Assembly (NCBI GenBank): GCA_001801685.1
Contig: MGYJ01000001.1
Coordinates: forward strand, 1-55,213
Reading direction: 5' to 3'
From: Gammaproteobacteria bacterium RIFCSPHIGHO2_12_FULL_63_22
Lineage (GTDB): Bacteria > Pseudomonadota > Gammaproteobacteria > Xanthomonadales > Xanthomonadaceae
Length of the DNA: 55,213 bases
How positions within the stretch are numbered: the stretch's first letter is position 1; the number at the start of each line of letters is the position of its first letter. Positions 10,815 to 27,532 of the stretch are shown here, in pieces. The translations under genes were made by a program, and so were the position numbers. The notes beneath the pieces are model-generated. The model saw only the letters and a list, made by a program, of their open reading frames with translations, was not told the DNA's origin and made no database searches.

Positions 10815-10891
10815 TGGCGCGCCCGACAGGATTCGAACCTGTGACCCTTGCCTTCGGAGGGCAATACTCTATCCAGCTGAGCTACGGGCGC
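10815..10891 (-). tRNA. tRNA-Arg (anticodon CCG)
   Basis: On the minus strand a 77-nt cloverleaf can be folded. The acceptor stem is GCGCCCG/CGGGCGC, with discriminator G and an encoded CCA end. The D-arm contains AGCTCAGCTGGATAGAG and the anticodon stem TTGCC/GGCAA encloses the loop CTCCGAA (anticodon CCG, reading CGG). The T-arm contains GGTTCGAATCC. It stands alone between the dipeptidase gene and the c-di-GMP gene. I saw no second copy of its 3' end nearby, so there is no sign of an integrated element. Confidence 0.97.
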
Positions 10892-24564: not shown

Positions 24565-25395
24565 ATGATTTTCGGGCGAGCGGTAATCATCCTTGCGCTG
24601 TCGCTGGGGCTCGGCGCGTGCGCCACCTATTACGACGACGGCGTGCGTTACGAGGACGGCAGCTACTACTCGCCGGGCGATGCCGGCCGCGGCGATTACT
24701 ACTACGCGCCCGAGCCCAGCTACAACCGCTACTACTACGACGAGTTCGACCGCTTCTTCTTCGACTCGTCCTATTACGGCTTCGGTTCGTTCGGCGGTGG
24801 CTGGTATGGCTCGCCGATCTATTCCTATGGCGGCTACTGCTCGGTGCGCTATCGCTATTGCCCGCCGTTCGGTTATTACGATCCGTTCTTCGACCCGTTC
24901 CCGCGCTTCGGCCTGCAGATCTCTTTCGGCAACCGCTGGTACTACCCGTACGACTACGGCTATGGCCACGGCTATGACTACCGCCATCGCGCGCCGCCGC
25001 GTCGCCGGCCCGGCAATCCGGCCACGACGCCTGCGCCCGACGCCGGCGCTCCCCGGGCAGAAGCACCGGACCAGCCCTGGATTCCGCGCCCGGTGGACGA
25101 ACGGCCGCGCCGCGAGCGGCCGCGCCGCGACCCGATGGCCGATGACGGTGCTTTCGTCCCGGACGCCGACCGGGAGGTCATCGACCCGGCGGTAGGGGAT
25201 GACGCAGCCGACGCACCTGTCCGCCGTTGGCGTGGACCGGCGCCCCGGCCGGCGAGCGCGACGCCCAGTCCGGCTCGTCCGCCCAGTGCCGAACCCCGGC
25301 GCAGCAGCCCGCCGCGTAGCGAGGGCAGCAGCGATGGCGATGCCTCGCCGCGCCGGCGCAGTCGCAGCAGCGACCGCGACGATGACGGCAACTGA
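24565..25395 (+). CDS. Tyr/Gly-rich predicted lipoprotein with Arg/Pro-rich tail
   Basis: A 276-residue protein with a lipoprotein signal ending in LGAC (Cys19). Residues about 20-145 are extremely rich in Tyr, Phe, Gly and Asp (for example RGDYYYAPEPSYNRYYYDEF), followed by a Pro/Arg/Asp-rich, probably disordered tail to the end. AAGGGG lies before the ATG. No catalytic motif is visible. Such aromatic-rich lipoproteins occur in Xanthomonadales with unknown role; surface or matrix interaction is a guess. Confidence 0.65.
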   Translation: MIFGRAVIILALSLGLGACATYYDDGVRYEDGSYYSPGDAGRGDYYYAPEPSYNRYYYDEFDRFFFDSSYYGFGSFGGGWYGSPIYSYGGYCSVRYRYCPPFGYYDPFFDPFPRFGLQISFGNRWYYPYDYGYGHGYDYRHRAPPRRRPGNPATTPAPDAGAPRAEAPDQPWIPRPVDERPRRERPRRDPMADDGAFVPDADREVIDPAVGDDAADAPVRRWRGPAPRPASATPSPARPPSAEPRRSSPPRSEGSSDGDASPRRRSRSSDRDDDGN

Positions 25396-25460
25396 CCTTT
25401 AGCGTCGGTTTTTGACCCAAGCGGACGCGCCGGCAACCCGTCCGGCGGCAAAATCCAGGC

Positions 25461-25496
25461 AAAAAAAAGCTGGGAGTTCCCCCCGGAACTCCCAGC
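25461..25496 (-). terminator. Intrinsic terminator (minus strand)
   Basis: Read on the minus strand: a perfect 12-bp stem GCTGGGAGTTCC / GGAACTCCCAGC with loop GGGG (25469-25496), followed immediately by eight T (25461-25468). This is an excellent intrinsic terminator in the minus direction only; on the plus strand no T-run follows the stem. No minus-strand protein gene ends here, which is what points to the small RNA. Confidence 0.92.
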
Positions 25497-25570
25497 CAGC
25501 ATTCCCACGCGAGCCTTGAAGGATCTTGCGATCCGTCGACGCCCCCCGGCGTTTGGCCGCGTTGGGTGCA
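25461..25570 (-). ncRNA. Candidate sigma-54-dependent small RNA upstream of mnmG
   Basis: A predicted transcript of about 110 nt from the sigma-54 promoter at 25581-25596 to the terminator at 25461. Three hairpins follow in order. First, ACGCC-GGGG-GGCGT (25539-25552). Second, GGATC-GCAA-GATCC with a GNRA tetraloop (25521-25534). Third, the terminator hairpin, also with a GGGG loop. No start codon with a credible frame or ribosome-binding site lies in it. Structure, promoter and terminator are seen in sequence; expression and function are inferred. It is divergent from mnmG, so it may also affect that promoter region. Confidence 0.6.
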
Positions 25571-25580
25571 TGGAACCTTA

Positions 25581-25596
25581 AGCAGGGATCGTGCCA
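25581..25596 (-). promoter_or_regulatory. Sigma-54 (-24/-12) promoter, minus strand
   Basis: Minus-strand TGGCACGATCCCTGCT matches the RpoN consensus TGGCACG-N4-TTGCT. The essential GG (25594-25595) and GC (25582-25583) are spaced by exactly 10 bp, and the -24 block TGGCACG is a perfect match. The predicted start is near 25570. No bacterial enhancer-binding protein gene is in the window. Confidence 0.7.
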
Positions 25597-25648: not shown

Positions 25649-27532
25649 ATGACCCTGCCCTCGCACAAATTCGATGTCATCGTGATTGGTGGCGGCCACG
25701 CCGGCACCGAGGCGGCGCTTGCCTCCGCCCGGGCGGGTGCGCGCACGCTCTTGCTCACGCACAGCATCGAAACCGTCGGCCAGATGAGCTGCAACCCGGC
25801 CATCGGCGGCATCGGCAAGGGCCATCTGGTGAAGGAGATCGATGCCCTGGGCGGCGCGATGGCGCATGCCGCGGACGTCGCCGGTATCCAGTGGCGGACC
25901 TTGAATGCTTCGAAGGGTCCGGCCGTGCGGGCGACCCGCGCACAGGCCGACCGCGCCCTGTACAAGGCGGCGATCCGCCGCATCGTCGAAGCACAGCCCA
26001 ACCTGTCCCTGTTCCAGCAAGCGGTGGATGACATCGTCATCGACGCGGGCGAGGTGCGTGGCGTGCTTACGCAATCGGGCCTGCGTTTCGACGCCACCGC
26101 CGTGGTGCTGACCGCGGGCACGTTCCTGGCCGGCCGCATCCATGTCGGGCTGAGCCAGCACGACGGCGGTCGGGCCGGCGATCCGCCGGCGACGACGCTG
26201 GCGCATCGACTGCGCGAAGGCCCGTTCTCGGTGGCGCGGCTCAAGACAGGTACGCCGCCGCGGATCGACGGCCGCAGCATCGACTATTCGCAACTGGCCG
26301 AACAAGCCGGCGACCAGCCGATTCCCGGTTTCAGTTTCCTGGCCACGCCGGACCGCCATCCGCGCCAGGTCTCGTGCTGGATCACCCATACCAGCGAGCG
26401 TACCCACGACATCATCCGCGGCGGGCTCGACCGGTCGCCGATGTATTCCGGCACCATCGAAGGCATCGGCCCGCGTTACTGCCCGTCCATCGAGGACAAG
26501 GTGGTGCGCTTCGCCGACAAGGACTCGCACCAGATCTTCATCGAACCCGAAGGGCTCGACACCTACGAGGTGTATCCGAACGGCATCTCCACGTCCCTGC
26601 CGTTCGACGTGCAGCTGGCCCTGGTGCATTCGATCAGGGGCCTGGAAAACGCGCACGTGACGCGGCCCGGGTATGCCATCGAGTACGACTATTTCGATCC
26701 GCGCGGCCTGAAGTCCTCGCTGGAAACCAAGGCGGTGCAGGGCCTGTTCTTCGCCGGACAGATCAACGGCACCACGGGTTACGAAGAAGCGGCGGCGCAA
26801 GGATTGCTGGCCGGACTCAATGCCGCGCGCCACGTGCAGCAGCTGCCCGCCTGGAGCCCGCGTCGCGACGAAGCTTACCTGGGCGTGCTGGTGGACGACC
26901 TGGTCACGCACGGCACCACCGAGCCCTATCGCATGTTCACCTCGCGCGCCGAGTACCGCCTGCAGCTGCGCGAAGACAACGCCGATGCGCGCCTGACCCC
27001 GGTCGGCCACGACATGGGCCTGGTGGACGAAGCGCGCTGGGCCGCATTTTCCCGCAAGGCCGATGCGGTCGCTGCCGAGACGGGGCGCCTGGCCGCGATC
27101 TGGGCCGCCCCGAACGGCGCCCTCGCCAGCGAACTGGAGGCCAGCACCGGCGTCTGCCTGACCCGCGAAGCGACCGCCCTGGACCTGATGAAGCGGCCCG
27201 GGCTTGGTTACGCCGAACTGATGTCCCTGGCCAGCCTCGGCCCCGGCACGGATGACCCGAAAGTCGCCGAACAGGTAGAGATCAGCGTCAAATACGCAGG
27301 CTACGTGGATCGCCAACGAGACGACATCGCTCGCCAGCGGCGCCACGAAGACACCCGCTTCCCCGAGGACTTCAGTTTCCGGGGCATCCCCGGCCTGTCG
27401 GCGGAACTGCAGGGCAAGCTCGACTCGGTGCGGCCCGAAACCCTGGGCCAGGCCCAGCGGATTCCCGGCATGACCCCGGCCGCCCTGTCGCTGCTGCGCA
27501 TCCAGCTGGCCCGGCGTCGCCAGGTCGCCTGA
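25649..27532 (+). CDS. mnmG: tRNA uridine-5-carboxymethylaminomethyl modification enzyme, FAD subunit
   Basis: A 627-residue FAD-dependent subunit of the MnmE-MnmG complex, which modifies U34 of tRNAs that read two-codon-box codons. The Rossmann FAD motif is [12 protein letters not shown] (Gly14-Gly16). [23 protein letters not shown] is the family signature, and [22 protein letters not shown] and the C-terminal [15 protein letters not shown] are also characteristic. I chose the ATG at 25649 as the normal MnmG N-terminus, although the frame is open further upstream. The upstream space contains the candidate small RNA on the other strand. Confidence 0.98.

Follow-up and report, generated by a model that had tools for sequence, protein, structure and literature searches.

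CrcZ/CrcY, Qrr and GlmY/GlmZ are sigma-54-dependent small RNAs, and none of them is known to be opposed by a convergent RNA whose loop is complementary. The small RNA considered here, asX1, has a -24/-12 promoter in common with them, but they are unrelated families. There is also a likeness to the class of anti-sRNAs or sponges, as asX1 would work by pairing with another regulatory RNA, but in the present case the two would be encoded by convergent neighbouring genes, one of which has a sigma-54 promoter.

In X. campestris, asX1 (Rfam RF02235) was found in the genomes analysed, with expression in strain CFBP 5828R (PMC4652430). It is listed in Xylella fastidiosa by Rfam, where it was found in cellular RNA only, and an sRNA group including asX1 was linked to virulence (PMC12189769). 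The portions of PMC4652430 and PMC12189769 considered here give no mechanism for asX1. The sigma-54 consensus is given as TGGCACG-N4-TTGC with GG at -24 and GC at -12, and the corresponding X. fastidiosa survey considered a site only if it was intergenic and lay on the coding strand of an annotated gene (PMC3224663). The titles and abstract openings on Xanthomonas sRNAs, RpoN and Xylella RpoN make no mention of a sigma-54 promoter of asX1, and in a term look-up gidA was absent from PMC7694677, PMC3039613, PMC2996969 and PMC12316311. Another described RNA, sX13 (RF02232), uses 4C/5C loops to act on GGGG motifs (PMC3771888). Like asX1 it is a structured Xanthomonas-family sRNA that uses exposed homopolymer loops (PMC3771888), and it occurs in the same genome as the RNA described here, but its loops are C-rich, it belongs to another Rfam family and it lies on a separate contig (C19). 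This diverged sX13 copy with C-rich loops is located at G000:C19:71315-71428 (locus L142).

The small RNA beside mnmG and its fold

The window, that is, the whole stretch of 55,213 nucleotides that was analysed, carries on its minus strand a candidate small RNA of about 110 nt (25461..25570), which was delimited by a match to RF02235, by our own model R1 and by its predicted fold. The predicted 5' end lies at about 25570-25568, the start of the Rfam model corresponding to 25568. The RNA is divergent from mnmG (gidA; 25649..27532, plus strand), assigned by its open reading frame and its homologues, and convergent with a hypothetical lipoprotein-like frame taken from the ORF list (24565..25395, plus strand). 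The preliminary description had regarded it as an RNA of an unrecognised kind at mnmG; on comparison, it is instead a divergent copy of asX1. This assignment is made because the RF02235 match is full-length (model positions 1-115; 35.9 bits, E 9.4e-4 over 501 bases), because intermediate relatives link the two, and because R1, our model of 38 aligned sequences, of which the window is one, gives it 68.3 bits. The closing stem, the terminator hairpin and the location beside mnmG are shared with asX1. On the other hand, the window copy scores below the RF02235 cut-off of 70 bits, a scan of the window at the Rfam gathering threshold giving nothing for asX1, and its hairpin 2 is replaced, with the GGAACAGGGG loop absent.

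In a DNA search of 61 genomes, one being its own, 31 had a match at E <= 0.1, and the best non-self match was 84% identical; the intermediate relative L003 is 84% identical over query positions 43-185. When the loci of seven relatives were scanned with Rfam by E-value, RF02235 was found in five (66.6-92.1 bits) and not in the L003 and L017 loci. Within the genus, L008, L024, L012 and L005 reached 74.9, 71.3, 67.5 and 66.6 bits, respectively. At E <= 0.01, RF02235 was present in 129/149 family genomes, a search in which the window's own genome was missed; 102 were above the cut-off, and the best relatives reached up to 131.6 bits. It was found in 0/14 control genomes. When 200 genomes of the order were searched with R1, 35 genomes had a match at E <= 0.01, every one from the window's own family. 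The named records that carry asX1 together with the C-rich hairpin described below are from Stenotrophomonas, Luteimonas and Arenimonas. In 137 of the 148 asX1 loci, mnmG is the divergent neighbour within 700 nt. A search with the asX1 region only placed it once in its own genome, with no paralogue, and a plasmid search with the window region gave no match. Elsewhere in the window, a tRNA-Arg (CCG) gene is located at 10815-10891 on the minus strand.

All the elements of the RNA listed in the preliminary description were found in their places, namely a hairpin with a GGGG loop, one with a GCAA tetraloop, and the terminator with its GGGG loop and T run. By the predicted fold, hairpin 1 spans 25539..25552 with its GGGG loop at 25547-25544. 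Hairpin 2, with the GCAA loop, spans 25518..25537 according to the fold, motif counts and alignment, and in the window it is without the GGAACAGGGG or GAACAGGGG loop that this hairpin bears in most relatives. The intrinsic terminator (25461..25497) has a GGGG loop at 25484-25481 and the T run, and 13 pairs (25497-25468) were counted in place of the 12 bp given earlier. The two small hairpins exist as described, but a long closing stem around both (25499..25569; 5' arm 25569-25555, 3' arm 25515-25499) had been overlooked. Since both inner hairpins are enclosed by it, the RNA is predicted to form a three-way junction followed by a terminator. The fold has a z of -6.03, and 0/200 shuffles were equally low.

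Comparison with relatives supports this structure. In alignment A1 (38 sequences), 93.2% of the cells pair, and both-side changes occur in 24/31 pairs; the double-change cells number 153 vs 46.5 in shuffles, with 0/500 shuffles as high, and the signal vanishes when the partner is slid. The closing stem, helix 2 of the counted structure, has 9/11 pairs altered on both sides in relatives. Two sets of loci were used for the counts that follow. The DNA-match set (L003-L024) comprises 20 loci of the same genus, while L017 and L022 are of the same family. From the 129 RF02235 genomes, five were already in this set; the other 124 hits were fetched and one duplicate was dropped, which left 123 RF02235-selected loci. 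The hairpin-2 loop is the family's most conserved exposed stretch. The motif A[AG]C[AG]GGG, counted anywhere in the RNA, in hairpin 2 or elsewhere, was present in 123/123 RF02235-selected and 18/21 DNA-match copies, and it is absent from L003, L004, L006 and the window.

The sigma-54 promoter and its candidate activator

The -24/-12 promoter TGGCACG-N4-CTGC was found where the preliminary description had placed it, at 25582..25596 on the minus strand (GG 25595-25594, GC 25583-25582). Its letters TTGGCACG-ATCC-CTGC span 25597-25582, and the spacing from GG to GC is 10 bp. The Rfam model begins where, by the usual spacing rule, a sigma-54 transcript is expected to start. In this window, the promoter alone gave 1 exact match vs 0.24 expected, with one in 24/100 shuffles, and with one mismatch allowed 6 were found vs 5.84 expected. 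The promoter of the window is beyond chance because it is conserved across relatives, and not by such single-window statistics.

Loss of the GG and GC in relatives had been named beforehand as the observation that would speak against the promoter, and both were kept. The pattern TGG-N10-GC, sought 8-16 nt ahead of the conserved GC[ATG]C, was present upstream of asX1 in 123/123 RF02235-selected loci, all outside the genus set, and the gap from the promoter GC to the conserved GCAC was 11-14 nt in the 141 loci measured first. Promoter letters that the pattern does not fix were also kept, namely the G after the -24 block in 120/123 and, at positions allowing two or three letters, C in 121, A in 122 and T in 123 (n=123), while columns -60 to -5 ahead of the promoter were flat, i.e., without conservation, in these loci. 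The DNA-match set had the promoter in 21/22 loci, the exception being L017. Ten further named mnmG loci showed TGG-N10-GC within ~340 nt in five cases (L035, L037, L038, L040 and L067). Nine weak asX1 matches were noted in genomes initially scored negative; seven had GG-N10-GC by eye, and L341 and L339 had none. RpoN is encoded in the window's genome (G000:C5:78319-78795, E 9.5e-68).

Taken together, the conserved promoter and the covarying fold lend strong comparative support to the proposal of a sigma-54-dependent small RNA divergent from mnmG, and the feature described at this place is confirmed as real. We infer that asX1 is transcribed by sigma-54 RNA polymerase from 25582-25596 on the minus strand, which the comparison strongly supports. 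In genus g10, asX1-like RNAs with a GGGG hairpin and a GGGG-loop terminator occur without a sigma-54 element (L017 1506-1616 and L339 1501-1550, both on the minus strand), and by eye that of L017 is flanked by other genes. In the context of this genus, no asX1 was seen upstream of mnmG in G035, G108 or G134.

The data on regulators are suggestive of PilR as the activator of the asX1 promoter. In genome G099, the search at E <= 1e-20 gave a single enhancer-binding protein, PilR-like by alignment, and the asX1 promoter of this genome is intact (L221). X. fastidiosa is reported to have only NtrC and PilR (PMC3224663), and asX1 is reported in this species (PMC12189769). Among the 80 genomes searched, a PilR match of 67-100% identity, partly fragmentary, was obtained in 54/55 asX1-positive genomes, a tally that excludes G035. 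In a reduced clade of the same genus, which counts as one event, the PilR-like regulators of G001 and G006 (L320, L357) are without the GAFTGA-type sigma-54 contact loop, and a divergent RpoN is retained despite this loss. Upstream of mnmG in G001, G006, G014 and G025, neither asX1 nor a sigma-54 site was found, and G007 offered just 86 nt upstream of mnmG to examine; G006 and G014 still have an NtrC-like protein.

Against PilR, the asX1 promoter of G018, the sister of the window, is perfect, yet even a loose search of this genome gave no PilR match better than 42% identity, and PilR matches are also present in genomes in which asX1 is altered or was not detected (G035, G086, G108, G122, G134, G136, G159 and G182). 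NtrC-, PilR- and IHF-like patterns were sought in 116 regions upstream of asX1, and none was enriched, so that no conserved enhancer site was recognised. The naming of the regulator as PilR is tentative and draws on a weak PilS-like domain alongside (25.7 bits vs a cut-off of 27); no PilR model was among the reported NCBIfam matches of the regulator, and no entry called PilR was among the 35 matches listed in a solved-structure search. The rpoN gene was found in 76/80 genomes; of the four without it, G128 has asX1, and the other three gave no match either to RF02235 or in the DNA search. Co-occurrence of RpoN with asX1 is uninformative because rpoN is this widespread.

A convergent C-rich hairpin and its loop

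The core GGAACAGGGGG, mostly followed by [AG]ATCC, was found in a second hairpin downstream of asX1 in 139/148 loci. Within the 130 to 460 nt searched, its downstream distance from the -24 element was 163-435 nt, with a median of 247. As the core pattern fixes the first ten letters bar one choice, their invariance is partly built in, while the presence in 139 loci is not. The stem showed both-side changes in 12/15 pairs and 90 double-change cells vs 28.9 in shuffles (0/500). Fold energies were indifferent to the strand, that of asX1 being lower in 28/54. RNAalifold gave 15 pairs with 67 G-U and 7 A-C cells on the strand opposite asX1, and 8 pairs with 2 G-U and 23 A-C cells on the asX1 strand, a comparison that sets two different pair sets side by side; asX1 on its own strand had 77 G-U and 19 A-C cells. 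Because the wobble pairs fall on the opposite strand, the better reading is that the hairpin belongs to a putative RNA convergent with asX1, CGGA-UCCCCCCUGU-UCCG.

Conserved promoter-like words were seen ~100 nt upstream of the C-rich core on the strand of the hairpin. The pattern TTGC[GA]-N16-19-CR[AT][GTC]CT, selected only after the sequences were viewed, occurred ahead of the hairpin in 69/138 regions vs 0.5 expected, and a terminator-like site followed the hairpin in 28/138, with 2 in shuffles. A loose-threshold Rfam scan covered 14 loci, 12 with the hairpin and two (L003 and L017) without it. In the 12, no match at the hairpin reached any cut-off; the nearest was RF02884 at L113:1714-1761 on the minus strand (26.5 bits vs 59, E 0.12). 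The hairpin of L038 matched no plasmid and that of L113 no phage in the respective searches, and titles and abstract openings on PilR sRNAs, on Stenotrophomonas sRNAs with gidA and on sigma-54 sponges mention neither it nor a sigma-54 promoter of asX1; those on Xanthomonas sRNAs, RpoN and Xylella RpoN are likewise silent on the hairpin. The convergent C-rich hairpin is apparently undescribed so far. Named records of Dyella, Dokdonella and Luteibacter also keep it, and there asX1 is weak or uncertain (29.6, 13.2 and 12.4 bits). In L353 of genome G182, the hairpin lies immediately upstream of mnmG.

The C-rich loop CCCCUGUUCC complements the hairpin-2 loop GGAACAGGGG of asX1, and the longest complement between the two RNAs sits at both loops in 128/139 loci. 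The commonest complementary stretches were GGAACAGGGG (70), GGAACAGGG (28), GAACAGGGG (25) and UGGAACAGGGG (3). The longest complement had a mean of 9.6 nt (range 6-13), compared with 7.4 for a reversed and 7.3 for a loop-shuffled partner, and the duplex of the ten-letter stretch was computed at -18.8 kcal/mol. Compensatory changes between the asX1 and partner loops were not seen because the loops are nearly invariant.

The asX1 motif was present in 139/139 loci bearing the C-rich hairpin. Nine loci were without the standard hairpin; three of these (L003, L004 and L006) were also without the motif, and six kept it. Among the six, L125 and L151 are rearranged, L224 is cut by a contig end, L234 has a variant hairpin, and L154 and L155 are left without explanation. 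In L125 and L151, asX1 appears flipped relative to mnmG, which lies downstream in the same direction, and the C-rich hairpin of L125 is on the other side. G182 is a counter-case, with the hairpin and no asX1 in place; the genome gave only a chance-level match elsewhere (E 0.84). In the window, as in L003, L004 and L006, both the hairpin and the motif are missing, and no asX1 complement longer than 6 nt exists in 25341-25460, so that the loop complementarity of the relatives is not seen in the window itself. A possible 5' leader remnant of the convergent RNA (ACTGACC..GCGTCG..TTTTTGAC) was called by eye at 25391..25418 on the plus strand, against leader words enriched in relatives, and the C-rich hairpin that succeeds this leader in relatives is absent after it. 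In a partial MnmG tree, for which support values were not shown, L004/L006 were separate from window/L003, and a clade without asX1 stood beside window/L003. It suggests two joint losses of the motif and the C-rich hairpin. Related loci in all these counts are not independent events.

A proposed antagonist and its alternatives

Comparison shows that the RNA is asX1, that its promoter is conserved and its fold covaries, that a partner hairpin with a complementary loop lies beside it in most relatives, and that hairpin and motif can be absent together. On these grounds we consider it fairly probable that asX1 is a sigma-54-switched antagonist of the neighbouring convergent C-rich RNA, and that the window keeps only its scaffold. 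In this process, an enhancer-binding protein would activate sigma-54, upon which asX1 would accumulate; in the window, transcription would stop at the terminator 25497-25461. The exposed hairpin-2 loop GGAACAGGGG would then kiss the loop CCCCUGUUCC of the C-rich hairpin encoded ~100 nt away, and we infer that such a contact in the cell would sequester the C-rich RNA. In the lineage of the window, what is left is the promoter, two GGGG loops and the scaffold of the fold, with the partner and the matching loop missing. As the pairing parts are missing there, asX1 in the window may be either decaying or acting on other C-rich RNAs.

The C-rich hairpin could also be the 3' UTR of a convergent protein gene, with asX1 controlling mRNA stability or the 3' end in cis. 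Same-strand open frames do end ~110-210 nt before the hairpin in 7/9 printed hairpin loci, any open frame being counted without choosing which is the gene, and a run of at least four U follows the hairpin in 15/139 loci (8/139 on the other strand). The name asX hints at an antisense RNA; moreover, the promoter-like pattern is post hoc and fits half, and the terminator-like site is limited to 28/138. That this pattern nevertheless precedes the hairpin in 69/138 loci, and that the Dyella and Luteibacter loci keep the hairpin though the upstream gene appears different by eye, makes a 3' UTR unlikely in our view. As regards the mnmG side, the sigma-54 complex or asX1 transcription might act in cis on the divergent mnmG promoter, with the RNA as a by-product. 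GATAAT/TANAAT-like words are enriched in that region, and such a -10 element lies ~10-74 bp past the -24 element in 85/148 loci, with no strong -35. We judge this very improbable, given that strong covariation of the RNA stems is needless for a by-product, that a divergent mnmG within 700 nt is missing from 11/148 loci, and that mnmG is on the other side in L125 and L151. A cis-antisense action on mnmG was rejected: in those 85/148 loci, the -10-like element of mnmG is situated between this gene and the asX1 promoter, so that overlap of both transcripts is unexpected there.

The GGGG loops had been proposed in the preliminary description to act as a sponge for C-rich-loop sRNAs. For the family, this idea agrees with the convergent C-rich hairpin whose complementary loop is found in 139/148 loci, but in the window neither the partner nor the matching loop is present, and sX13 pairing was no better than in controls. 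A general sponge that binds chiefly sX13 through these loops has the distribution of RF02232 on its side, which at E <= 0.001 was found in 73/80 genomes, 39 of them exceeding the cut-off, and which reaches 46.6 bits vs a cut-off of 50 in the window's genome. The longest accessible complement in 26 genomes was 6.27 nt, compared with 5.66 for shuffled and 6.38 for reversed sX13; asX1 thus shows no specificity beyond base composition, and we hold such a sponge to be quite improbable. Titration of a protein such as RsmA/CsrA via GGA motifs is hardly credible. At least three GGA occur anywhere in the RNA in 119/123 RF02235-selected and 13/21 DNA-match copies, but the GGA of the hairpin-2 motif, present in 114/123, occurs in 1/21 DNA-match copies (20 of these 21 being of the same genus), the ANGGA form is limited to 26/123 and 13/21, and the letters common to all 123 are A[AG]C[AG]GGG. 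A conserved GGA in exposed loops was not found, and the decoy was rejected.

Returning to the antagonist reading, a wider and more doubtful picture can be drawn for the family, in which a housekeeping-type promoter would drive the C-rich RNA, sigma-54 with PilR would drive its antagonist asX1, and the C-rich regulon would thereby be coupled to the programme for type IV pili; the window would then be the state after partner loss. The conserved sigma-54 promoter tells when asX1 is made, and the neighbouring RNA with a perfectly complementary loop hints at what asX1 may act on. If this is true, the two RNAs would form a compact module by which a sigma-54 signal turns off a C-rich regulatory RNA.
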